This document shows, in pieces, positions 23,895 to 36,864 of a stretch of 37,484 nt of DNA. A program made the translations under genes and the position numbers. The notes below the pieces were generated by a model. The model did not search any database. It was not told where the DNA came from and saw only the letters and a program-made list of their open reading frames with translations. This stretch comes from Neisseria sp. (GTDB taxonomy: Bacteria > Pseudomonadota > Gammaproteobacteria > Burkholderiales > Neisseriaceae): NCBI RefSeq assembly GCF_030523955.1, contig NZ_JAUNHL010000028.1, positions 1 through 37,484 of the forward strand. Direction: 5' to 3'. Every line of letters begins with the position of its first letter. Position 1 is the stretch's first letter.

Positions 23895-24602
23895 TCAAAT
23901 GGCTCGTTTCAACATAATTTCTTTAATCTTACCGATGGCACGGGTCGGATTCAAGTGTTTCGGGCACACATCAACGCAGTTCATGATGGTATGACAACGG
24001 AACAATCGATAAGGGTCGTTTAAATTATCCAACCGCTCATTAGTGATGGTATCGCGGCTATCAGCGATAAAACGATATGCATTCAATAGTCCGGACGGAC
24101 CGACAAACTTATCAGGGTTCCACCAGAAAGATGGGCAAGCAGTCGAGCAACAAGCACACAGAATGCATTCATACAAGCCGTCTAATTCCTTGCGGTCTTC
24201 CTGAGATTGCAAGCGCTCACGGTTAGGATCAGCAGGCGTATCATTCACCACGTAAGGCTTGATGGAATGATACTGCTTGAAGAACTGGGTCATGTCCACA
24301 ATCAAATCGCGGATAACCGGCAAGCCAGGCAGGGGACGCAGTACGATGGGCTGCTGCAGGCTACGAATATCAGTCAAACAGGCCAATCCGTTTTTACCAT
24401 TGATATTCATACCATCCGAACCACAAATACCTTCACGACAGGAACGGCGGAAGGAAAAGCTGTCATCCTGAGCTTTAATTTTCACCATCGCGTCCAGTAG
24501 TTTCACGTCGGTCGGTTCAATTTCGATTTCATAATCTTTCATGTATGGCTTAGCATCCACATCGGGATTATAGCGGTACACTTTGAAACGTACTTTTTCC
24601 AT
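23895..24602 (-). CDS. sdhB: succinate dehydrogenase iron-sulfur subunit
   Basis: A 235-residue electron-transfer subunit. The [2Fe-2S] ligands are Cys55, Cys60 and Cys75, with Asp63 at the fourth ligand position as in E. coli (CREGICGSDG). The [4Fe-4S] motif is CILCACCSTACP, and the [3Fe-4S] motif is CHTIMNCVDVCP. The [3Fe-4S] cluster next to quinone identifies it as a membrane-linked SQR subunit, in contrast to the FrdB-like protein at 36211-36864. Confidence 0.97.
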   Translation of the reverse strand: MEKVRFKVYRYNPDVDAKPYMKDYEIEIEPTDVKLLDAMVKIKAQDDSFSFRRSCREGICGSDGMNINGKNGLACLTDIRSLQQPIVLRPLPGLPVIRDLIVDMTQFFKQYHSIKPYVVNDTPADPNRERLQSQEDRKELDGLYECILCACCSTACPSFWWNPDKFVGPSGLLNAYRFIADSRDTITNERLDNLNDPYRLFRCHTIMNCVDVCPKHLNPTRAIGKIKEIMLKRAI

Positions 24603-24613
24603 TTATGTGTTCC

Positions 24614-26380
24614 TTAATAAACGCGTTTGGCCGGTTCGATGTAATCGACAGTCAATGGTTTTGTGTGAACCGGTTTGTAGTGCAGACTGTTATCTGCCGA
24701 ATAAAACAAGGTATGTTTCATCCAGTTTTCATCATCGCGATCAGGATGATCATCAGAAGCGTGGGCACCACGCGATTCTTTACGTGCCTCGGCAGAAATC
24801 AGTGTCGCTTTCGCCACCTCCATCAAATTATCCAATTCCAAAGCTTCGATACGTGCCGTATTCCACACTTGGCTCTTATCCTTGATTTCAGTATTTTTGC
24901 TTCGCTCATACAAAGCCAATACTTTGTCTACGCCTTCTTTCAGAATCGCATCGGTACGGAATACGCCGGCATGCAACTGTACGGTACGCTGCAGCTCACG
25001 ACGCAATTCATCCACATTTTCACCACCGGATTGATTATTCAGGCGGTTTAGGCGCTCTTTGGTGAACTCGCCAGCATTGGCAGGCAGCGGTTTCCAATCG
25101 GATTGCTGATTAATGAAATTAATCATACTGTCACCGGCCGACTTACCAAATACCACCAAGTCAAGCAACGAGTTAGTACCCAAACGGTTAGCTCCATGTA
25201 CCGAAGCACAGGCACATTCACCGGCAGCGTACAGACCTTTAACCACCACTTCAGGATTATCACCCTCCGGTACGGTTACTTCGCCTAAATAGTTGGTCGG
25301 AATGCCGCCCATCATATAGTGCGTAGTCGGCACCACGGGAATCGGATCCTTAATCGGATCGATACCAGCAAATTGAATAGAAATCTCTCGAATCCCCGGC
25401 AGCTTCTCCATAATTTTTTCAGCGCCGATGTGATCAATTTTCAACAATACGTGATCTTTATTCACACCACAGCCGCGACCTTCGTAAATTTCCATTGCCA
25501 TCGCACGAGACACTACATCGCGCGAAGCCAAGTCTTTAACGGTCGGCGCATAGCGTTCCATGAAGCGCTCGCCGTTGGCATTCAACAAAATACCACCCTC
25601 ACCGCGCACACCTTCCGTAATCAACACACCTGCACCTGCTACACCTGTCGGATGGAATTGCCAAAATTCCATATCCTCCAACGGAATACCCGCACGGGCA
25701 CAAATACCCAATCCGTCACCGGTATTCATAAATGCGTTGGTAGAAGAAGCATAGATACGGCCAGCCCCGCCGGTAGCAAACAATACGGCTTTAGCATGGA
25801 AAATGTAAACATCACCGCTTTCCATTTCCATTACGGTTACACCTACCACATCACCGTTTTCATCGCGAATCAAGTCCAACGCAGTCCATTCCACAAAAAA
25901 CTGTGTGTTCGCGCGTACATTTTGCTGATACAACGTGTGCAACATGGCATGACCGGTACGGTCGGCTACCGCACAAGCCCGCTCCACTGCGCGTTTACCA
26001 TGTTCTGCAGTATGGCCACCGAACGGACGTTGGTAAATTTTTCCGCTTTCTACACGGTCAAACGGCATGCCCATGTGTTCCAACTCAATAACAGCTTCCG
26101 GTGCACGGCGGGTCATGAATTCGATGGCATCTTGGTCACCCAGCCAGTCGGAACCTTTTACAGTATCATACATGTGCCAAGTCCAATGGTCTTCCTGCAC
26201 ATTACCCAATGAAGCGGAAATACCGCCTTGCGCCGCTACTGTATGAGAACGGGTTGGAAAAACTTTAGATAAAACAGCAGTATTAAGGCCAGCTTTGGAC
26301 AACTGCAATGCAGCACGCAAACCGGCACCACCGCCGCCTACGATAACGGCGTCAAATTTTCTAACAGGAAAACTCATCAT
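24614..26380 (-). CDS. sdhA: succinate dehydrogenase flavoprotein subunit
   Basis: A 588-residue catalytic subunit oxidising succinate to fumarate. The dinucleotide motif is GGGGAG (15-20). His46 in [11 protein letters not shown] is the covalent FAD attachment site. [15 protein letters not shown] and [13 protein letters not shown] carry the dicarboxylate-binding residues. The start overlaps the sdhD stop (TAATG); a second ATG directly follows and either could be used. Confidence 0.97.
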
Positions 26381-26727
26381 TACCCCCAGATTACTTTAAT
26401 AGAATATACGGCACAGCCTACCAACCACACGATGGTTGCACATTGCAGAAACAAACGCAGACCAAAAGGTTTGATGTAGTCCATCCACAAATCGCGCATC
26501 CCCACCCAAGCATGCAGGAAAAGCGCCAAGAAAGTAACCTGAGTAAATACTTTCACCCAAGTTTTACCGAAAAATGCCTGCCATTCGGAATAGTCATCCG
26601 CTCCGATCATACCCAGCAGGAAGAAAAAGAAAATAACGGTATAAACCAACATAATCACAGCAGTTGCACGCTGCATTGCCCAATCACGCAAACCGTAATG
26701 AGCACCGGCAAGTTTACGATTTACCAT
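26380..26727 (-). CDS. sdhD: succinate dehydrogenase membrane anchor SdhD
   Basis: A 115-residue hydrophobic protein with three membrane helices. His72 in [17 protein letters not shown] is the expected heme b ligand region, and the following Asp/Tyr lie near the quinone site. Its start overlaps the end of sdhC by 7 bases, and its stop overlaps the sdhA start. Confidence 0.93.
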
Positions 26728-27098
26728 AGAGCGACTCCCAGCACCAAAGCAGATACAACACCTGAAATCAAAACAATACGCGCGGTTTTACGTGCGGTTT
26801 CCAATTCCAAACCCAAGTGCGCGTCCAGCAGCAAAAAGCGTACACCAGCAATCAAATGATGCATCAATGCCCACAGTACACCGATCAGTATCAATTTCAC
26901 TAAAAAGTTATCCGCCCAAGCCTTATAGGTATCGAAAGTTTCGCCACTGCTTAACGATCCGCCCAACAAAGCCAGCAGAATAGGCAACATCACAAAAAGG
27001 ATAACGCCGCTGATGCGATGCAAAATCGAAACTATCCCTGGAATCGGCAGCTTAATTTGCTGGAGATCCAGAAATACAGGTCGTTTTTTTGTCTGCAT
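26721..27098 (-). CDS. sdhC: succinate dehydrogenase cytochrome b556 subunit
   Basis: A 125-residue, three-helix membrane subunit. The HRISG motif (27-31) belongs to the quinone-site region, and His80/His81 in ALMHHLIAGVRFLLLD include the heme b ligand. It is the first gene of sdhCDAB-sdhE. AAGGA lies before the ATG. In N. meningitidis the iron-responsive sRNA NrrF represses sdh mRNA; I could not identify an NrrF gene or site here. Confidence 0.94.
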   Translation of the reverse strand: MQTKKRPVFLDLQQIKLPIPGIVSILHRISGVILFVMLPILLALLGGSLSSGETFDTYKAWADNFLVKLILIGVLWALMHHLIAGVRFLLLDAHLGLELETARKTARIVLISGVVSALVLGVALW

Positions 27099-27639
27099 TT
27101 CAGTTCCTTGAATATATTAATATTAAAAAATGACCGTGGTTTGTTTGAAGTTAAAACGCAGCTTGCTTGCGATTACAGCAAACTACTTTAACCTATAATT
27201 TACCTTGTTTATCTCTTATTGGGTAGTCTTTTTTATCATAATTTTAAGTGAAATTTAGCAACATTTTACCTTTATACTTTTGTAATAACCAAGATTTCCA
27301 GCATCAACAATTATTTAAGCAACCAAAGCGCAATTGTGTTGCAAACTTGACCATTTAATATATTTATCATGCCGAACAATTAAAGGATGCGCCCAACACT
27401 CACTAGATACGCGGAAATTACCGAGTTTGAGTCTCAGTGATAGATATTTACAAAATATGGTTACACTATCCTACAAATATTGGTATGATAAGCCTGTCTG
27501 TACGGTCGAAGATTACGATATTATCTTTCGTATTGCCGAGACTGTTGCCGTTTCTAATTTTGCTGCATAGTTTATGCTGCTTTTTTATTCATTATTGTCT
27601 TATTTTTTATTCATTATTGTCTTAAAGGAGAACTTTGGT
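27099..27639. promoter_or_regulatory. divergent sdhC-mdh intergenic region
   Basis: An AT-rich 541-base stretch between divergent sdhC and mdh that must contain both promoters. I see no convincing pair of boxes or FNR-type palindrome. A short stem GCATA/TATGC (27565-27577) followed by a T-run precedes the 22-bp tandem duplication. An open frame at 27334-27570 has no family resemblance and I do not call it a gene. Confidence 0.45.
27581..27624 (+). repeat. perfect 22-bp tandem duplication before mdh
   Basis: Two identical 22-base units (27581-27602 and 27603-27624), each six Ts followed by ATTCATTATTGTCTTA, abut the mdh ribosome-binding site (AAAGGAG, 27624-27630). Copy number could change by slippage or recombination and alter the mdh leader. 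Confidence 0.9.
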
Positions 27640-28617
27640 ATGAAAACACCCGTTCGCGTAGCCGTTACCGGTGCTGCAGGCCAAATTGGTTATAGCTTAT
27701 TGTTCCGCATCGCCAGCGGTGAAATGCTGGGTAAAGACCAACCGGTTATTCTGCAATTACTGGATTTGCCGCAGGCGCAAAATGCAGTTAAAGGCGTGAT
27801 GATGGAATTGCAAGACTGTGCTTTCCCTCTGCTGGCCGACATGGTTGCTTCCGATGATCCTGAAGTGGCTTTCAAAGATGCCGATATTGCTATTTTGGTG
27901 GGTGCCCGTCCGCGCAGCAAAGGTATGGAACGTGCCGATTTGTTGCAGGCCAATGCCGAAATCTTCACCGTTCAAGGCGCAGCCCTGAACAAAGTGGCCA
28001 GCCGTGACGTAAAAGTATTGGTGGTTGGCAATCCGGCCAACACCAATGCTTACATTGCCATGAAATCGGCTCCGGATCTGCCTGCTAAAAACTTTACCGC
28101 GATGCTGCGCCTGGATCACAACCGTGCAGCCAGCCAAATTGCCGAGAAAACCGGCCAGTCGGTTAAGGATATTGAGAAACTGTGCGTATGGGGCAACCAC
28201 TCGCCGACCATGTACGCCGATTACCGCTTTGCCACCATTAACGGCGAAAGCGTTAAAGACATGATCAACGATCAAGTGTGGAATGCCGAAGTATTCCTGC
28301 CTACCGTTGGCAAACGCGGTGCGGCGATTATCGAAGCGCGCGGCTTGTCTTCCGCTGCCTCAGCCGCCAATGCAGCCATCGATCACGTACGCGACTGGGT
28401 ATTGGGCACCAACGGCAAATGGGTAACCATGGGTATTCCTTCCGACGGTTCTTACGGTATTCCCGAGGAAACCATGTTCGGTTTCCCGGTAACCTGCGAA
28501 AACGGCGAATACAAAATTGTGGAAGGTTTGGAAATCGATGATTTCAGCCAAGAGCGTATCAATATCACGCTGAAAGAATTGGAAGAAGAGAAAGCAGGCG
28601 TTGCCCACCTGCTGTAA
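27640..28617 (+). CDS. mdh: NAD-dependent malate dehydrogenase
   Basis: Cytosolic enzyme interconverting malate and oxaloacetate. From the ATG at 27640, nine bases after AAAGGAG, it has 325 residues. The NAD-binding loop is GAAGQIGY (12-19). The substrate-binding arginines lie in [11 protein letters not shown], and the catalytic histidine is in [12 protein letters not shown]. It is the type 2 (Burkholderia-like) MDH. An upstream in-frame ATG runs through the tandem repeat and is unlikely. Confidence 0.96.
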
Positions 28618-28701: not shown

Positions 28702-31350
28702 TTAGACAATTGCGGCTGATGATGATTCGTTCACGGTAATATCCACCGGGAAAACCGCCATCGAATAGCTTTGATCGCTGTTATTCGTATATTTCACAAA
28801 GTCGGGGTTGGTTATCGTTTGCCCTGCGAACTCGAAAACCTCTATCTGAAACACGGAACTGCTGAAGAAATTGGAAAGTTGTACCGAGCTGCCTTCTTCC
28901 GCGTCGGATAAAATCAGATGATTACCCTCTTTCTTGAATATAATTTCTTCAGGCCGGATATCGGTAAATCGGATGGTATCTTTTTCTGTTGCCCGGCCGA
29001 CATCGGTAATCACGTCTTGGCCGTATAACTTACTGAAAACATAAGTATCGCCGCCGGTACCGCCATTGAGCGTATCGTTGGCGAAACCGCCGACGAGGGT
29101 ATCATTGCCGTTGCCGCCGAATATACGGTCGTTACCGTTGCCGCCGTCAAGTTCATCGTTACCGTTATCGCCTTCTAGCCGGTCATCACCGTCACCGCCG
29201 GATAGTTTGTCGTTACCGTGGCCGCCCGACAAAGTGTCTCTGCCTTCGCCGCCGGTTAAGGTATCGTCACCATTTTCACCATACAAACCGTCATCGCCCG
29301 CATCTCCCCACAGTTGGTCGTTACCGGCACCGCCGTACAGCTGATCGTTTCCGGAACCGCCTGCGACTTGGTCGTTACCCAAACCGGCAAAAATAGTGTC
29401 CAAGGTGTTTGATCCCAACAGTATATCGTCATTAGCACTACCGGCACCTCTGATACTAAGCGATGCCATGTCCTGATAAGTGATGGTTTTATCATCAAAT
29501 TCGAATTGATAATAACGGTAATCTTGATTCGCAGTCTGGTCGTTTTCACTCAGATATATCTGGCCGGCAAAATAACGGCGGATCACCACACTGTCGCCAC
29601 TATTCTGGCCAAAAGCATTAATGATTAAATCATTGCCCGAACGGGAAAAATAATTGTAGAAATAGTTGGCACCTTTGAAACGCAAGGTATTGGTATCAGC
29701 GGCACCTTCACCGTAATCAAATACTTTATCGTGCCCGTGGCCGCGCTCGAAAATATAGGTATCCGCTCCTTCGCCGCCGCTGAGCAAATCATCGCCGCTA
29801 CCGCCAACCAATGTATCGTTGCCTGCGTAAGTGAATAATTGATCATTACCGGCATTGCCGTATATTTCATCCTGTGTAGCGGCGCCGGCCAGATAATCGT
29901 CGTTTCTGCTGCTGCCTTCAAAACGGATGCTGACTTGCCCCATATCTTCGGGCGTTAGAGTCTGATCGCTGAAAGCGAATTGGAAATAACCGGCGATATA
30001 GCTGAAATAATTCTGAACGGCAACTTGATCCTCTCCGCCATATGCCTTAATAATCAAATCGTTTCCGCTTCGGATGAACTGCGCATCCGCCAATTGTGCA
30101 TCGTTAAACAGCAAGGTATTAAGCTGAGAGCTGCTTTCTTGAATGATATCCGCTCCATGCCCGCGCTCGAATACATAGGTATCGGCACCATAACTTCCAA
30201 TCAGCGTATCATTTCCCGCCTCACCGATAAAAGTGTCGTTACCGCCGCCACCGGTAATTTCATCTTTACCGCTGCTGCCTGCCAACGCATCATCCTCCCA
30301 TGTGCCGGCAATTCGGTTGATGGTTTCGGTATCCGGTAAATTCAGGCCGTTAATCAGCGCTTTTACTTCGGCGGAGGTCAGCTTCTTATCGGCAAACTCA
30401 AACTGTACGTCGTTTTTGATAAATTCGCCTTCATCGCCAAATACATCCCGTACCAAAACTTGGCTGCCGTCGCCATAAGCCTGAATCAGCAAATCGCTGC
30501 CTTGTCGACTATAAACGGCAGAAGATGAATCTGCATTTTGAAAACGGAAGATATTCAAACCATTCAAATCGCTATTGAGGATAACGGTATCTTTTCCGTG
30601 CCCCGATGCAAAAATAAAGGTTTGTACCGTATTTTCGCCATAGCTGTTGATTTTGGTGTCATACATCATGTCGTCGCCGGCACCGCCTGTCAGCGTATCG
30701 TTACCAAACCCGGCATACAGTACATCGTTACCGTCTCCGCCCAACAAGATATCATTGCCGTCATGACCGTGCAGTTCGTCATTACCGCTGCCGCCGGAGA
30801 GCACATCATTCCCCTCGAAACCATACAAGGTATCGTCGCCCGCTTCTCCCGAGAGCTGGTTTTCACCGGTACCGCCAAACAGCACATCATTTTGGCTGCT
30901 ACCGCTCAAACCCTCGGGTCCGGCCAATCCGACAATCCGCGTAAGGATGTCTTCGTAGCCGTAAGTCTGGCCGTTGAATTCAAATTGGATGTTTTTATGT
31001 GTTTGATAAAAAGATGATCCATAATTGTGAAATTCAGCGAAATACTGCTCTACTTTGATGGTTTCATGATTACCAAACGGCCGGATCAGCAAATCCCAGC
31101 CGGAACGGGTGAATACCGCATCCTCCAATTGGCCGTCTTGAAAGGTCAAAGTAGTTTTAGGCCATGCCTTATCCCGTGTGTAGGAACCATAAACGATGCT
31201 GTCCGCACCGAAGCCACGGGCATAATGATAAGTGGGCTGGCCGTAACCATATTGCCGGTCGCTCCAGCGGTAAACCGTATCTATCGGCGTATAATGATAA
31301 TAAGCAGGGAATTTGAGGCTGATGGCATCCACGATTTGATTAGAAGACAT
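28702..31350 (-). CDS. RTX calcium-binding repeat protein, probable T1SS substrate
   Basis: An 882-residue acidic protein with no N-terminal signal peptide. Glycine/aspartate nonapeptide blocks (GGxGNDxLx) at about 146-228, 351-390, 483-530 and 640-768 alternate with five copies of a beta-rich module (about 41-134, 244-333, 391-472, 531-632 and 769-855). The module pattern is FERGHGxD, LxFxxA, F(S/I)RSGNDLII, a short basic stretch with YF, and F(E/A)F. This resembles the haemolysin-type Ca-binding related domain. There is no toxin, protease or lipase domain. The C-terminal tail DITVNESSSAAIV fits a type I secretion signal. AAAGGA precedes the ATG. No secretion genes are nearby. Confidence 0.85.
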   Translation of the reverse strand: MSSNQIVDAISLKFPAYYHYTPIDTVYRWSDRQYGYGQPTYHYARGFGADSIVYGSYTRDKAWPKTTLTFQDGQLEDAVFTRSGWDLLIRPFGNHETIKVEQYFAEFHNYGSSFYQTHKNIQFEFNGQTYGYEDILTRIVGLAGPEGLSGSSQNDVLFGGTGENQLSGEAGDDTLYGFEGNDVLSGGSGNDELHGHDGNDILLGGDGNDVLYAGFGNDTLTGGAGDDMMYDTKINSYGENTVQTFIFASGHGKDTVILNSDLNGLNIFRFQNADSSSAVYSRQGSDLLIQAYGDGSQVLVRDVFGDEGEFIKNDVQFEFADKKLTSAEVKALINGLNLPDTETINRIAGTWEDDALAGSSGKDEITGGGGNDTFIGEAGNDTLIGSYGADTYVFERGHGADIIQESSSQLNTLLFNDAQLADAQFIRSGNDLIIKAYGGEDQVAVQNYFSYIAGYFQFAFSDQTLTPEDMGQVSIRFEGSSRNDDYLAGAATQDEIYGNAGNDQLFTYAGNDTLVGGSGDDLLSGGEGADTYIFERGHGHDKVFDYGEGAADTNTLRFKGANYFYNYFSRSGNDLIINAFGQNSGDSVVIRRYFAGQIYLSENDQTANQDYRYYQFEFDDKTITYQDMASLSIRGAGSANDDILLGSNTLDTIFAGLGNDQVAGGSGNDQLYGGAGNDQLWGDAGDDGLYGENGDDTLTGGEGRDTLSGGHGNDKLSGGDGDDRLEGDNGNDELDGGNGNDRIFGGNGNDTLVGGFANDTLNGGTGGDTYVFSKLYGQDVITDVGRATEKDTIRFTDIRPEEIIFKKEGNHLILSDAEEGSSVQLSNFFSSSVFQIEVFEFAGQTITNPDFVKYTNNSDQSYSMAVFPVDITVNESSSAAIV

Positions 31351-31533: not shown

Positions 31534-31570
31534 AAAATGCCTGTCTGAAAAACTTTCAGACAGGCATTTT
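31534..31570. terminator. uptake-sequence terminator of the DASS gene
   Basis: Inverted uptake sequences (31538-31549 and 31555-31566) form a 17-bp stem with a 3-base loop, 18 bases beyond the transporter stop. Confidence 0.85.
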
Positions 31571-31587
31571 TAATAAATAACAATTAA

Positions 31588-33078
31588 TTACCAATAACCC
31601 AACAGTTTCCACCACATCACGCCGACCGTAGCGAAAATAATGATTTCGACCACACTCATGATAAAGCCGGCTTTCCACCATTCGGTCATGGTAACGTAGC
31701 CGGAGCCGTAAATCACCGGCGAAGAGCCCGAAGCATAGTGGGTAAGCGACATCATGATGCTGGTGGAGGCGGCCAATACCAGTGCATACAGCATCGGCGG
31801 AGCACCAAGGGCGAGGCCGGTGGCGTAAAATGCGCCGAGCATGGCGGTAACGTGCGCGGTGCCGCTGGCAAACATATAGTGCGAATAAATATACGCCAAG
31901 GTCAGTAAGGCGCAACCGGCTACCCAGTTTAATCCCAAACCGGAAATACCTTCTTCCAACACGCCGGAGAACCAGCTGATCAAACCCAATTTATTGAGGA
32001 AAGTTGCCATCATCACCAAAGCGGCAAACCAGATAACGGTATCCCAAGCGCTTTTTTCTTTCAGCACGTCATCCCAAGTGAGCACGCCGGTCAGCAGTAA
32101 CAAGGAAAGGCCGATAAAGGTGGTGGTGGTGGCGTCCACCGCAGCTGCTTTACCGAAAATCATCGCCGGAACGCCGGCCCACAACACCAGCAGCAAGGCG
32201 AAAATGCCGAGCATAATCCATTCGTTGCGGCTCATCGGCCCCATTTCTTTCAATTTCTGTTTGGCCAGATCGGTGGCATTGGGCGTTTGTTTGATTTCCG
32301 GCGGATAAAGCCAGAACAAAATCAGCGGCATCAAAATCATCGCCACCATACCGGGCACCACCATCGCGACAAACCAAGTGCCCCAAGAGATCGAAATATT
32401 GGAATTGGTGGCTTCGGCAATCAATTTCACCACCAGCGGATTCGGGGCGGTGGCGGTGATAAACAGCATGCAGGAAATGATATTGGCGTGATAATTCACC
32501 AATGCGAGATATTTACCGATTCTGCCTTCGGTATGGTTTTCCGGGTCGGAATCAAAACTGGCGGCAATCGCCCTCATCACCGGATGCACGATGGCACCGC
32601 CGCGGGCGGTGTTGCTGGGGGTTACAGGGGCGAGCACCAAATCGGAAATCACGAGGCTGTAGGCCACACCGAGCGTACGCTTGCCCCAAATGGCAATAAA
32701 CATATAGCCAAAGCGCGTACCCAAACCGGTTTTCAGCAAGCCGCGCGAAATCATGATGGCCACGCCGATCATCCAGATCAATGTGTTATTGAGGCTGCTC
32801 AAAGCATCTTTGGCCGCCTGCCCGGCCGGATTGGCAATCGCCTTGCCGGTTTCCGGATCGACTTCGGGCACGGTGATGCCCAGCAAAGCAACCAGTGTAA
32901 TGCCGATGATCGCGACGGCACCGATGGGCATGGCTTTGCCGATAATCGCCGCGATAATGCCGACAAACAAGGCCAGCAAATGCCAAGCATTGGCGGTGAC
33001 GCCCTCAGGCACCGGAATCAGCCAGATAACCAGCGCCAAGGCCAGCGCTACTAGTGTGGGAGTTGGTTTGAAACCCAT
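31588..33078 (-). CDS. DASS/CitT-family dicarboxylate or citrate carrier
   Basis: A 496-residue inner-membrane protein with a dozen or so hydrophobic segments, from the ATG at 33078 (GGAG before it). The two SNT-type substrate/Na+ motifs of the divalent anion symporter family are visible: TPSNTARGG and, in the C-terminal half, ASGTAHVTAML. TATAPNPL is also typical of CitT/TtdT/SodiT-like members. Probable substrates are malate, fumarate, succinate, 2-oxoglutarate or citrate; many relatives exchange them for succinate. It lies directly downstream of the putative NADH:fumarate reductase operon, separated by a hairpin. Confidence 0.88.
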   Translation of the reverse strand: MGFKPTPTLVALALALVIWLIPVPEGVTANAWHLLALFVGIIAAIIGKAMPIGAVAIIGITLVALLGITVPEVDPETGKAIANPAGQAAKDALSSLNNTLIWMIGVAIMISRGLLKTGLGTRFGYMFIAIWGKRTLGVAYSLVISDLVLAPVTPSNTARGGAIVHPVMRAIAASFDSDPENHTEGRIGKYLALVNYHANIISCMLFITATAPNPLVVKLIAEATNSNISISWGTWFVAMVVPGMVAMILMPLILFWLYPPEIKQTPNATDLAKQKLKEMGPMSRNEWIMLGIFALLLVLWAGVPAMIFGKAAAVDATTTTFIGLSLLLLTGVLTWDDVLKEKSAWDTVIWFAALVMMATFLNKLGLISWFSGVLEEGISGLGLNWVAGCALLTLAYIYSHYMFASGTAHVTAMLGAFYATGLALGAPPMLYALVLAASTSIMMSLTHYASGSSPVIYGSGYVTMTEWWKAGFIMSVVEIIIFATVGVMWWKLLGYW

Positions 33079-33246
33079 GATGTATCTCCAAAATTGGAAT
33101 TGAGTTGAAACACGACCGAAAGAAGCAATGCGCAACCGCTTTTTTATTTGCCGCCGTCATCGGTTTTCAGCCGTATGTTCGATGTTTAACACCAAACCTA
33201 TGGATTTCCGTGATGCGTAAAATCTTTGTTTTTATATATTTTTATT

Positions 33247-33312: not shown

Positions 33313-34578
33313 TTAAAATGATTGCGGTGCTTCAGATAAGCCGTACTCTTGCGGGAAGGTACGCATCGAGCTTTGGGTAACGGTGACCGCGCCGTCTATC
33401 AAACCGCAGCGGCCGCTGTGCGGCAACAGACGGCAGAGGTTTTGCAGAGCGTGCAAATCGTCATCGGTGGCCACACCGCTGTCTACCCGGTGCAGTAAGC
33501 GCGACAACTGGAAGGTGCCGCCTTTGCAAGGTGGGCACTGGCCGCAGGAATTGGTGGCGAAAAATTCAACATACTCGCACACCTTGCGCACCACGCTCGT
33601 ACCTTCGGAAATCACAATCATCGCACCGGTACCCAAGCTCGAATGGCGCTCGCGTACCGAGATAAAATCCAGCGGTACGTCCAAATCCTTAGCCGTCAGC
33701 AAGGTATTGGAAGGGCCGCCGGTGAACACCGCTTTAAACGCCCGGCCTTCCAACATGCCGCCGCCGTGTTCGAAGATCAGCTCTTTGAGCGTGGTGCCCA
33801 TCGGTAATTCGTACAAACCCGGTTTCAATACGTCGCCGGAGAGCGAATAAAGCTTGGTACCCGCCGCCCCGCCTTCGCCCAAACCGCGGTACCATTCGGC
33901 GCCGTTGGCCAGAATATTGGGCACGTTGGCAAAGGTTTCGGTGTTATTGATGAGCGTCGGATCATCATTTACCCCGCTCTCGGCCGGATACGGCGGCTTG
34001 CGGTGCGGAAACGGAAAACCGCCGTTCAACCACGACACCACCGCCGTTTCTTCGCCGCCGATATAGCGGCCGGAAGTTTCCACTAATTTCAGCGACAAGG
34101 GCTCGCCCAGATAAGTCTCTATCTGCGCAAACAACTCGTGTTGCCGCCATTGCCCGATTGCCGCGCCCACGGCCGCAATCGATTCTTTTTGATGGGGATT
34201 TATGTACATCACCACATGATTGGCACGGCAGGCCACCGCGGCAATCAAAGTGCCTTCAATCACTTGGTGCGGGGTATGTTCCAGTAAAAAACGGTCTTTA
34301 AAAGTACCCGGCTCGTCCTCATTGGCGTTGCACACCACATATTTGCCGCCGTTTTTGCTTTTCGCATTCACCGCCGCTTCCCATTTGCGCCAAGTCGGGA
34401 AGCCAGCGCCGCCCATACCGCCCAAACCGGCAGCCTCAAGCGTGGCCACAATAGTTGCCGGATTATCCAGCGCCACCTGCAAACCGCGGCCGCCGCCCGC
34501 TTCCAGCCAAGCGCCCAAATCGGCGCCGACCAAGCGTTTCGGATTCAGCAATACTTGGTTTACCTTATTTTCAGCCAT
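33313..34578 (-). CDS. NuoF-like NADH/FMN iron-sulfur subunit
   Basis: A 421-residue flavoprotein resembling the 51-kDa NADH-binding subunit of complex I. The NADH-binding GLGGMGGAGFPTWRKW is at 51-66, FMN-region NANEDEPGTFKDR at 84-96 and GRYIGGEETA at 170-179. The [4Fe-4S] ligands are Cys345, Cys348, Cys351 and Cys391. The start overlaps the FrdA-like gene end by 8 bases, with GGAG before it. No other nuo gene is nearby, so this is not complex I. It is inferred to pass NADH electrons to the two upstream-encoded subunits. Confidence 0.88.
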   Translation of the reverse strand: MAENKVNQVLLNPKRLVGADLGAWLEAGGGRGLQVALDNPATIVATLEAAGLGGMGGAGFPTWRKWEAAVNAKSKNGGKYVVCNANEDEPGTFKDRFLLEHTPHQVIEGTLIAAVACRANHVVMYINPHQKESIAAVGAAIGQWRQHELFAQIETYLGEPLSLKLVETSGRYIGGEETAVVSWLNGGFPFPHRKPPYPAESGVNDDPTLINNTETFANVPNILANGAEWYRGLGEGGAAGTKLYSLSGDVLKPGLYELPMGTTLKELIFEHGGGMLEGRAFKAVFTGGPSNTLLTAKDLDVPLDFISVRERHSSLGTGAMIVISEGTSVVRKVCEYVEFFATNSCGQCPPCKGGTFQLSRLLHRVDSGVATDDDLHALQNLCRLLPHSGRCGLIDGAVTVTQSSMRTFPQEYGLSEAPQSF

Positions 34579-36214
34579 GATGGTTCTCCTTGAGACGTGC
34601 GTGTTCACGCAAATCGAAACTGCCGTAGTCAGGATAAAGTACCGGTGCTTTCACCGTACTGCGGATGCCCGCATGGGTCATTTCCCGTTGCAGGTTATAG
34701 ACGTGGCCTAAACTGCCGCGTTTTTTGTTAAACGGATGGTTGGAACGCTCGATACCGGCCGCTGCCGCAGCACCGGCACGACGGCCGAAGCTGATGATGT
34801 CCAGCAATGCATTGCCCATCAAGCGGTTGCGGCCGTGAATACCGCCGGTTACCTCGCCTGCTCCGTACAAACCGGGTACCGAAGTCGCACCGTTGGCATC
34901 AATTTGCATGCCGCCGTTTTGATAATGCAAAGTCGGATGAATCAACATCGGTTCAACCGCCGGATCAATACCGCATTTATGGGCAACATGCGAGAGCGAT
35001 ACCAAACGCTTCAATACGTCCGGATCCTTGGCAATCAGGCGCGGGGTATCAAGAAATACGCCGACCTGACCGTCGCGTACTACACCGCGGCCTTCTGCCA
35101 CTTCTCGCAAAATCGCCGCCGCCACCACATCGCGCGGTTGCAATTCATCGACAAACCGCTCGCCCAAACCATTCACCAACTGAGTACCCGCCGAGCGTAC
35201 CGCTTCGGAAATCAGCGCACCGGCCAAATAAGAGGGATAGGCCACGCCGGTGGGATGGTATTGGAAGGAATCGACATCTCTCAGCTTCACGCCCATACGG
35301 TAAGCCAATACCAAACCGTCGGCCGTTGCGCCGTAATGATTGGAAGTAGCAAACCCCTGCAGATGCAAACGGCCGCTGCCGCCGGTAGCCAAGATCACCG
35401 CTTTGGCCTGCACCATAACCAGCTTGCGGTTTTCCAAATCGTACAACACCGCACCGACGCAATTTCCGCGTTCGTCCGACAACAATTCGATGGCCGGGCA
35501 ACGGTTCAACAAAGTAATTCTGCGATCCAACTCTACCGCCTCACGCAATACCCTCATCATTTCAAGGCCAGTGAAATCGCGATAACACAACACGCGCGCA
35601 ATCGTGGTACCGCCCGCGCGTTTACGTTGCAAATAACCGCTGTTGTCCGAGCCGGGTTTCAAATCGAAATTCATGCCCAAGCCGATAAGCCAGCGGATGG
35701 CCGCCGGACCGTCGGTAACCATTTGGGCCACCAATTCTTTGTTGCCGGCATGATGACCACCCTTAATGGTGTCTTCGAAGTGCTGCTGCAAACTATCGTC
35801 TTCGCCCACCGCAGCCTGAATACCGCCTTCGGCCATTACGGTGTTGCTGTCACCGATACGCAGTTTGTTGGCCATCATCACAGACGCGCCCCCCTCAGCC
35901 GCTGCCAACGCCGCCGCCGCACCTGCGCCGCCGCCGCCGATCACCAGCACATCGGTATCGATTTGTTCGGCTCCTGCCAAATCGAAGTCCTGAATCAGCG
36001 GTTGGCTCAACAACAACTGCGCCAATTGCGGATGGCAAAACTCACCGGCATTGGCGCCAACCGGCAGCTTGATACGCGCACCGTCGTTATAATCAGGATG
36101 AAAGCCGCTCAACAAAGCGTCTTTCGGTAAAGAATCCGAGCGCATTTCCAACGAGGAAGAACGTAAGGCAGCCAAAGCTTGGGCATAATCAATGCCGGAT
36201 ACGGGATGTGTCAT
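34571..36214 (-). CDS. FrdA/NadB-like flavoprotein, probable fumarate reductase
   Basis: A 547-residue member of the fumarate reductase/succinate dehydrogenase/aspartate oxidase flavoprotein family. An unusual N-terminal extension of about 85 residues precedes the FAD motif GGGGAG (93-98). The dicarboxylate-site residues are all present: His320 (QYHPTG), Ser336-Glu337, the catalytic Arg361 (QPRD), His430 (PTLHY) and Arg464 (HGRNRL). The FAD-linking histidine is replaced by Asn124 (DSNTVMAEGG), so FAD is probably non-covalent. The C-terminal domain is short, about 70 residues. Aspartate oxidase or another enoate reductase is an alternative. Confidence 0.85.
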   Translation of the reverse strand: MTHPVSGIDYAQALAALRSSSLEMRSDSLPKDALLSGFHPDYNDGARIKLPVGANAGEFCHPQLAQLLLSQPLIQDFDLAGAEQIDTDVLVIGGGGAGAAAALAAAEGGASVMMANKLRIGDSNTVMAEGGIQAAVGEDDSLQQHFEDTIKGGHHAGNKELVAQMVTDGPAAIRWLIGLGMNFDLKPGSDNSGYLQRKRAGGTTIARVLCYRDFTGLEMMRVLREAVELDRRITLLNRCPAIELLSDERGNCVGAVLYDLENRKLVMVQAKAVILATGGSGRLHLQGFATSNHYGATADGLVLAYRMGVKLRDVDSFQYHPTGVAYPSYLAGALISEAVRSAGTQLVNGLGERFVDELQPRDVVAAAILREVAEGRGVVRDGQVGVFLDTPRLIAKDPDVLKRLVSLSHVAHKCGIDPAVEPMLIHPTLHYQNGGMQIDANGATSVPGLYGAGEVTGGIHGRNRLMGNALLDIISFGRRAGAAAAAGIERSNHPFNKKRGSLGHVYNLQREMTHAGIRSTVKAPVLYPDYGSFDLREHARLKENHHG

Positions 36215-36864
36215 GAACCTACCTCCTCTTGTAAAGCGTGGATATCCACGCGCATCGCGCCGTTATCGATTTGCTGCAGGCGACGCATCAAGTCTATCGG
36301 ACGCAGCATACGTGCCGAGCGCATACGGCGGGCAAACAGGCCGACGTGATTGGGCCGGATGTTTTCCGGGCAGGCCAAGGTACACAAATTGCACATCACA
36401 CATTCGTCAAACGTTTGGGCCGCAGCAGAAAACTCGCCCGCCACCACCTCGGCCACGCCATCTTGTACATGAAGGCCTTTCGGACAAGCTCGGTCGCAAC
36501 CGCCGCAATGACGGCAATGCGCCGCTTCGGGAAAATAACGCGCCGCATCGTCCAACCAGTTCCAGCCGTCGCCCGCCTCAGCCACATCGTAATAATGCAC
36601 ATGCTCGGGAATAAAATAATCCAGAAAGCTGACTTGCATACCGGGCTCAACTTTGGTTTCGCAGGCCAGTGCGGTGGTGACATCACGCTCACCCTCGCGG
36701 CGGATCAGGCAGCGGCAAGAACCGCAAACTCCCTGCCCCATGCAACCCACATTCGCAGTCAGCGCCTGGCCTGCATGGGCAAAAGCCTGAATGATGGATG
36801 AATCGGGCGAGGCATAAACCTCCTGCCCGTCGATAATTAAACGGTACGGTTCTTGTGTGCTCAT
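36211..36864 (-). CDS. FrdB-like iron-sulfur subunit with two 4Fe-4S motifs
   Basis: A 217-residue electron-transfer subunit. Its N-terminal ferredoxin domain has [2Fe-2S] ligands in Cys41, Cys47, Cys50 and Cys68. Two complete CxxCxxCxxxCP motifs follow, Cys117-Cys127 and Cys155-Cys165. In quinone-linked SdhB/FrdB the second motif makes a [3Fe-4S] cluster; here it is ferredoxin-like, pointing to two [4Fe-4S] clusters and a non-quinone partner. Its stop overlaps the FrdA-like start by 4 bases (ATGA). It is the first gene of the operon. Confidence 0.85.
   Translation of the reverse strand: MSTQEPYRLIIDGQEVYASPDSSIIQAFAHAGQALTANVGCMGQGVCGSCRCLIRREGERDVTTALACETKVEPGMQVSFLDYFIPEHVHYYDVAEAGDGWNWLDDAARYFPEAAHCRHCGGCDRACPKGLHVQDGVAEVVAGEFSAAAQTFDECVMCNLCTLACPENIRPNHVGLFARRMRSARMLRPIDLMRRLQQIDNGAMRVDIHALQEEVGS

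Follow-up and report, generated by a model that had tools for sequence, protein, structure and literature searches.

The three genes and their subunits

The window analysed here, of 37,484 bases, is a whole contig (C61); it belongs to a Neisseria genome of 2.81 Mb. Three overlapping genes on its minus strand, referred to below as the trio, encode an FrdB-like electron-transfer subunit, an FrdA-like flavoprotein and a NuoF-like subunit with NADH and flavin mononucleotide (FMN) domains. Their positions and expected domains, given in an initial annotation made from the sequence, were confirmed (Table 1). We propose that the trio probably encodes a soluble three-subunit NADH:fumarate oxidoreductase. 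The cytosolic route put forward in that annotation, in which electrons would pass from NADH through FMN and iron-sulphur (Fe-S) clusters to flavin adenine dinucleotide (FAD) and fumarate with no quinone, is supported by the conservation of the genes as a unit, by active-site residues, by the neighbours, by relatives lying in operons of the reductive tricarboxylic acid (rTCA) cycle type and by the absence of a membrane anchor.

The FrdB-like and FrdA-like genes overlap by 4 nucleotides and the FrdA-like and NuoF-like genes by 38 when counted from the GTG start of the latter, whose translation more probably begins with the ATG at codon 11. From the open reading frames no fourth gene lies within the three overlapping genes, and the unit therefore contains no NuoE-like gene. 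The domain search matched the FrdB-like protein to Fer2_4 and a Fer4 dicluster. Twelve of its cysteines (C41, 47, 50, 68, 117, 120, 123, 127, 155, 158, 161 and 165) were invariant in all 34 aligned sequences, and would form one [2Fe-2S] and two [4Fe-4S] motifs. With 19.9 bits on TIGR00384 (SdhB/FrdB, cut-off 88) the protein falls outside that family. The NuoF-like protein matched Complex1_51K, SLBB and NADH_4Fe-4S, and its residues C355, C358, C361 and C401 were invariant in 32 of 32 aligned sequences. Its residues 12–422 align to positions 99–509 of the 584 residues of 9bov_B, a bifurcating NADH subunit whose N- and C-terminal extensions are missing from the 431-residue core encoded here. As far as is known, bifurcating enzymes with NuoF (HydABC, StnABC/NfnABC) need such additional terminal domains and a NuoE-like subunit.

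The FrdA-like protein matched FAD_binding_2 over residues 88–470 with 241 bits, and its predicted structure (predicted local distance difference test score, pLDDT, 80.7) had E. coli FrdA (1kf6) as the top PDB match. Similarity to the SdhA/FrdA model for Gram-negative bacteria ended at residue 497, which is position 413 of 568 in the model, and the protein therefore lacks the C-terminal helical domain of complex II. The fold is preceded by an N-terminal stretch of approximately 83 residues in which H39-P40-D41 is invariant; Cys60 in the same extension was nearly so.

E. coli SdhA (1nek) served as the reference for alignment and numbering. Its residues H242, E255, R286, H354 and R399 correspond to H320, E337, R361, H430 and R464 of the FrdA-like protein, and these five were invariant in all 34 aligned relatives, whereas the position of T254 is a serine in the window. 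We take these six SdhA residues to make up the dicarboxylate site. The initial description of the site as complete was confirmed, except that serine takes the place of the threonine. A related possibility is that the same complex has another unsaturated acid, such as mesaconate, acrylate or aconitate, as its physiological acceptor. The serine leaves room for this, as does the variety of acceptors among FAD_binding_2 enzymes, but the invariant arginines and histidines argue against it and we consider it improbable.

The position of His45 of SdhA, which carries the covalent FAD, is occupied by Asn124, and by an asparagine in 34 of the 34 aligned proteins. According to the available text of PMC10238741, covalent attachment shifts the potential of the FAD upwards by approximately 100 mV and is needed for succinate oxidation in complex II. 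As this histidine is lost, the trio should run reductively, and reverse operation, which the initial annotation had thought conceivable, is disfavoured. A succinate:NAD+ oxidoreductase providing a quinone-free step of the TCA cycle would benefit from the reversibility, in principle, of Fe-S relays, but the reaction would be uphill by approximately +68 kJ/mol under standard conditions, and the window already contains an ordinary sdhCDAB, all four members of which passed their model cut-offs as had been assumed. We give this alternative hardly any credence.

Membrane anchors were searched for by tblastn (E 1e-6) beside 78 trio loci, namely 77 fetched loci and the window, with flanks of 1.5 to 9 kb and some genomes counted twice. 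No SdhC- or SdhD-like match was found beside any of them, and in the window the sole matches were its own sdhCD; a very divergent anchor could escape this search. The lack of an anchor, first stated for the window, thus extends to the other loci.

Table 1. Features of the window discussed in the text
Feature	Position	Strand	Remarks
sdhCDAB, ordinary succinate:quinone oxidoreductase	23895-27098	-	SdhA, SdhC and SdhD above equivalog cut-offs; SdhB above subfamily cut-off
Malate dehydrogenase-like gene	27574-28617	+	Ldh_1_N/Ldh_1_C; context: reductive arm, oxaloacetate to malate
Terminator-like inverted-repeat hairpin after the transporter gene	31534-31570	-	Two repeats resembling a DNA uptake sequence; pattern match only
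DASS (SLC13-type) anion transporter	31588-33135	-	TIGR00785, 389.5 bits (cut-off 198.6); downstream of the trio
NuoF-like NADH/FMN/[4Fe-4S] subunit	33313-34608	-	431 residues from the GTG start
FrdA-like flavoprotein	34571-36214	-	547 residues; N-terminal ~83 residues of its own, then FAD/fumarate domains
FrdB-like electron-transfer subunit	36211-36864	-	217 residues; plant-type [2Fe-2S] and two four-cysteine [4Fe-4S] motifs
Degenerate FNR-like site TTGATTTACCGCAA	37217-37230	+	At the position of the conserved TTGA-N6-TCAA element

Conservation of the trio and relatives that lack NuoF

Three samples were searched, made of 83 Neisseriaceae genomes, 369 genomes of the class and 398 genomes of the phylum, the window genome being included in each count. 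The FrdA-like protein was present in 27 of the 83 Neisseriaceae genomes. Identities of 74–83% within the family (fragments aside) and of 54–68% elsewhere, mostly in Pseudomonadota, argue that the trio is not a chance arrangement. The initial annotation had suggested looking for the three genes in other genomes, and this search bore it out. The order frdB-frdA-nuoF was kept in all 26 enlarged Neisseriaceae regions (L080–L105). Among 42 named loci the FrdA-like identity was at least 54% in 36, and all three genes were visible in 34 of these, some of them shortened by contig ends, while L049 and L068 stop ahead of NuoF; the six others (L069–L074, 33–37% identity) are of another type. Eight matches lay on plasmids, and four of the five loci fetched carried the trio, the fifth being an Ilyobacter locus without NuoF. 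In the class sample 15 of 369 genomes matched, and 11 of the 14 loci other than the window carry NuoF (52–58% identity). At loci of high guanine-plus-cytosine content the gene positions were taken from tblastn matches rather than from gene calls. Long frames at L046, L062 and L067, which could be mistaken for a natural FrdA-NuoF fusion, use a different reading frame from that of the overlapping FrdA match, and the fusion was rejected.

The trio-type NuoF was found in 28 of the 83 Neisseriaceae genomes, the 27 with the FrdA-like protein and a further one (G042) in which the gene sits 212 bases from a contig start. It is 32–40% identical to the other NuoF-like proteins that these genomes encode, and in a tree made with 30 of the 49 matches the 19 trio copies and the 11 other copies were split with a support of 100/100. 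Over 32 loci the pairwise distances calculated for each of the three proteins are correlated with one another (r 0.93, 0.91 and 0.94, with none of 2000 permutations as high), for which shared descent alone can be sufficient.

A second type of locus carries the FrdBA pair and no NuoF in the 1.5 kb or less available downstream. It accounts for 3 class and 29 phylum loci, with 43–52% identity, 30 of the 398 phylum genomes having matched in all. FrdB was present in 30 of these 32 loci, and the other two have fewer than 120 bases upstream. Twenty regions were enlarged: SucC, SucD and KorA lie downstream of FrdBA in 16 of them, with KorB too in 15, two (L163 and L164) carry HdrC, HdrB, KorA, KorB and HdrA, and the other two end too early. 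As these FrdBA pairs belong to reductive-TCA-like operons, which also encode subunits of succinyl-CoA synthetase and of 2-oxoacid:ferredoxin oxidoreductase, the reaction expected from them is the reduction of fumarate to succinate, a point against another acceptor. One operon of this kind, made of a POR-like pair, an EAL-domain gene, FrdB-FrdA, SucCD and KorAB (L169:1713-14975), recurs in many genomes of the phylum sample. No Kor-like gene was found beside the 78 trio loci, where a lone 54-residue SucC-like match lies at the edge of L126. The available text of PMC6783814 reports rTCA genes with a fumarate reductase in magnetotactic cocci, and that of PMC6315080 describes, for tubeworm symbionts and Thioflavicoccus, tfrAB accompanied by korABCD and flxABCD-hdrABC. 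Both suggest that the hosts of the NuoF-free loci may be organisms of these kinds.

The three NuoF-free class loci are of a Hdr-linked type, with an FrdA-like identity of 43–44% at L131 and L132. In the FrdA tree (69 chosen rows) the Hdr/rTCA clade had a support of 100/99. On the Ilyobacter polytropus plasmid (L075:673-9575), FrdB-FrdA (46% identity) is located behind Hdr-like, hydrogenase-subunit-like and Flx-like (FAD/NAD-protein) genes, in an operon which comes after an aspartate ammonia-lyase gene. This system is a candidate for NADH-fumarate-ferredoxin bifurcation. It is conceivable that the trio itself bifurcates or confurcates electrons, NADH driving the joint reduction of fumarate and ferredoxin, since the FrdBA core has Hdr/Flx-like genes beside it in Ilyobacter and Hdr genes at L163 and L164, and since bifurcation is proposed for flxABCD-hdrABC with tfrAB in the available text of PMC6315080. 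Against this, the seven Ilyobacter Hdr/Flx-like proteins had no match at E 1e-6 in any of the 78 trio loci within the flanks covered, the NuoF-like protein is devoid of extensions of the 9bov_B type and no NuoE-like gene is found among the three. With the usual extra parts absent, bifurcation by the trio, also raised in the initial annotation, appears very unlikely.

We see an even chance that these systems share one ancient soluble FrdBA core with interchangeable inputs. NuoF would serve this role in heterotrophs such as Neisseria, Roseomonas, Cupriavidus and Azospirillum. In Ilyobacter and certain gammaproteobacteria it would fall to a bifurcating Hdr/Flx module, and in rTCA autotrophs to another input, perhaps ferredoxin.

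Genes and signals around the trio

In the Neisseriaceae the trio has two regular neighbours. The DASS transporter gene, to which the initial annotation had paid no attention, follows it in 25 of the 26 enlarged regions, and a divergent class I fumarase gene lies upstream in 24. The two regions without fumarase are L086, which also reaches a contig end, and L094; they belong to genomes (G018 and G030) without a class I fumarase match. Over the family this enzyme was found in 24 of the 27 genomes with the trio versus 32 of the 56 others (p 0.005, uncorrected for kinship). At L082 class I fumarase genes flank the trio on both sides, each being 86% identical to the query, and G046 has two copies. 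Outside the Neisseriaceae 42 trio loci were scanned for neighbours, 11 of them with only 1.5 kb flanks. Carboxylate transporters were of the DASS type at eight loci (25–51% identity), and SDF (Cupriavidus), 2HCT (Azospirillum) and Mem_trans (AEC) permease (Azorhizobium) genes were found at one locus each. A pair made of a Cache-domain kinase and a sigma-54 regulator was present near four.

These neighbours point to C4-dicarboxylates, and the transporter of the window is a probable dicarboxylate importer or exchanger. Transporters of the DASS family carry several di- and tricarboxylates, which gives some room to an acceptor other than fumarate, but the presence of fumarase next to the trio in 24 of 26 regions argues for fumarate. 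The neighbours also bear on whether the trio could be an NAD-linked aspartate dehydrogenase that takes the place of NadB in the synthesis of NAD. The FrdA-like protein does match the nadB model with 281.8 bits, and no NadB of the genome passes the cut-off, but this score is far under the cut-off of 452.75, NadA was not found in 15 of the 27 trio genomes (including that of the window) and fumarase and an anion transporter are the neighbours. The replacement of NadB was rejected on these three grounds, with next to no chance left to it.

Between fumarase and frdB, conservation was highest for the 14-base element TTGACTGAAATCAA, which ranked first among 414 scored positions in 23 de-duplicated rows. 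Of 27 upstream regions, 25 have the motif TTGA-N6-TCAA without a mismatch, the exceptions being the window and L082. By comparison with the FNR consensus, we take this motif to be FNR-like. Conservation of this element suggests that the trio is probably under FNR control in the genus.

Two further observations concern the rest of the window. The sequence TGCCTGTCTGAA is present in 25 copies versus 0 expected, and some inverted pairs form a terminator-like hairpin, for example at positions 31538-31566; it is presumably a dialect of the DNA uptake sequence. On the minus strand, positions 28702-31350 encode an 882-residue protein rich in RTX calcium-binding nonapeptide repeats.

Proposed electron route and comparison with known systems

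In the route that we propose, the NuoF-like subunit would bind NADH and reduce FMN, and the electrons would leave singly via its [4Fe-4S] cluster. The FrdB-like relay of two [4Fe-4S] and one [2Fe-2S] clusters would carry them to the non-covalent FAD of the FrdA-like subunit, where fumarate would be reduced to succinate. The reaction would involve neither a quinone nor the membrane, and no protons would be pumped. Together with class I fumarase and a transporter bringing in malate or fumarate and exporting succinate, the trio could constitute an electron sink for NADH at low oxygen.

The transfer of electrons from NADH to fumarate is favourable by approximately -68 kJ/mol, whereas that from ubiquinol to fumarate is uphill. 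No genome of the 83 Neisseriaceae had MenD over its cut-off or MqnA/D. The weaker MenD matches seen in 81 are probably other thiamine diphosphate enzymes. In the absence of these menaquinone markers a quinol route would therefore need ubiquinol or a putative rhodoquinol. As far as the available text of PMC11707229 goes, menaquinone was lost in an ancestor of the Pseudomonadota, and low-potential quinones are the partners with which fumarate reductase functions.

Several observations weigh against the proposed function or narrow its scope. The window genome also encodes a quinol:fumarate reductase, frdABCD, on another contig (C22, L115:4523-7834), which the initial annotation had passed over. 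FrdA scored 1043 bits (cut-off 854), FrdB 371 (333) and FrdD 75 (60), and FrdC, with 106 bits, was under one equivalog cut-off (143) and over the Pfam cut-off. This quinol enzyme co-exists with the lack of passing menaquinone genes in the family. As the genome has both systems, the trio is neither a replacement for FrdABCD here nor the sole fumarate reductase. FrdC passed in 6 of the 83 genomes, 4 of the 27 with the trio versus 2 of the 56 others (p 0.08). The association with loss of frdABCD anticipated in the initial annotation was thus not observed, and such a loss was rejected as the reason for the trio. The trio is also patchy, being present in 12 of 369 genomes at class level and in the window genome alone (1 of 398) at phylum level, and its side of the FrdA tree had a support of no more than 90/84. 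Some copies in relatives look broken, with stops in frdA in G029 and a single in-frame stop within the aligned part of nuoF in G044 and G065, which implies that the function is dispensable. Class I fumarase was found beside none of the 42 loci outside the Neisseriaceae, which also favours another acceptor, and was not found in the genome of the window itself. Upstream of frdB the contig continues for 620 bases and the fumarase of the nearest relatives is only 430–490 bases away, so that a simple assembly gap is insufficient to explain its absence. The FNR-like copy of the window is imperfect, and single-sequence matches to this motif were often no better than shuffles. The fold search with the FrdB-like protein gave nine weak matches at E <= 0.001 and no clear one, the query template-modelling score (TM-score) being at most 0.33 among the 50 listed, and tells no more than that the domains are of the ferredoxin type.

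The reduction of fumarate generally depends on quinols of low potential (menaquinol, rhodoquinol), and in the Neisseriaceae searched the markers used detected neither of the two known menaquinone routes. If the proposed function is correct, the NuoF version would give ubiquinone-only bacteria an electron sink in fumarate with no need for such a quinone. A one-operon enzyme driven by NADH would explain how these bacteria could still use fumarate as an electron sink. Three genes are enough to test this, and the enzyme would offer a compact means of producing succinate in redox balance. It would also give a function to proteins annotated merely as FAD-binding, 4Fe-4S dicluster or NuoF-domain. A fumarate reductase containing NuoF was not found in the titles and abstract openings among the matches listed, a coverage which leaves out most subscription journals. 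The three-gene form linked to NuoF is new relative to the literature searched, and is scattered among Pseudomonadota, not common. The statement in the initial annotation that no characterised member was known needs correction in that soluble fumarate reductases linked to NADH or to Hdr are already known or proposed.

The TfrAB pair of tubeworm symbionts and Thioflavicoccus is a soluble FrdBA-type pair as in the trio, and we infer that the Hdr-linked loci L131 and L132, in the sister clade of the trio, correspond to this published system. It differs, in the available text of PMC6315080, by an electron input through Flx/Hdr and an rTCA setting, whereas the trio has a single NuoF-like subunit and Hdr/Flx genes at none of its 78 loci. 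The thiol:fumarate reductase TfrAB of methanogens is also soluble, and among the NCBIfam models TfrA fits the FrdA-like protein best, although its 346 bits fall below the cut-off of 718. The FrdB-like protein, with ferredoxin-type domains only, scores 19.7 bits against the TfrB model of 488 positions (cut-off 385) and lacks the cysteine-rich, thiol-oxidising C-terminal half. Complex II, whether a succinate:quinone oxidoreductase (SQR) or a quinol:fumarate reductase (QFR), has the FAD domain and dicarboxylate residues in common with the trio, which lacks the covalent-FAD histidine, the C-terminal helical domain, a subunit of the SdhB/FrdB family and an anchor. NuoF of complex I shares the FMN/NADH fold and the [4Fe-4S] cysteines with the trio protein, which forms a separate clade and is encoded in an operon without NuoE or NuoG. 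By the features tested, the trio is not complex II, TfrAB, a Flx-Hdr complex, NadB or a bifurcating NuoF enzyme. A further parallel is offered by the soluble NADH-dependent fumarate reductase of Hydrogenobacter thermophilus, an rTCA thermophile, reportedly described by Miura et al. in 2008. It is said to be cytosolic, with NADH as donor, fumarate as acceptor and an FrdA-type catalytic subunit, and to consist of five subunits encoded by scattered genes, whereas the trio has three genes in one operon of a Neisseria-type genome. By analogy, the enzyme of the trio would work like that of Hydrogenobacter.

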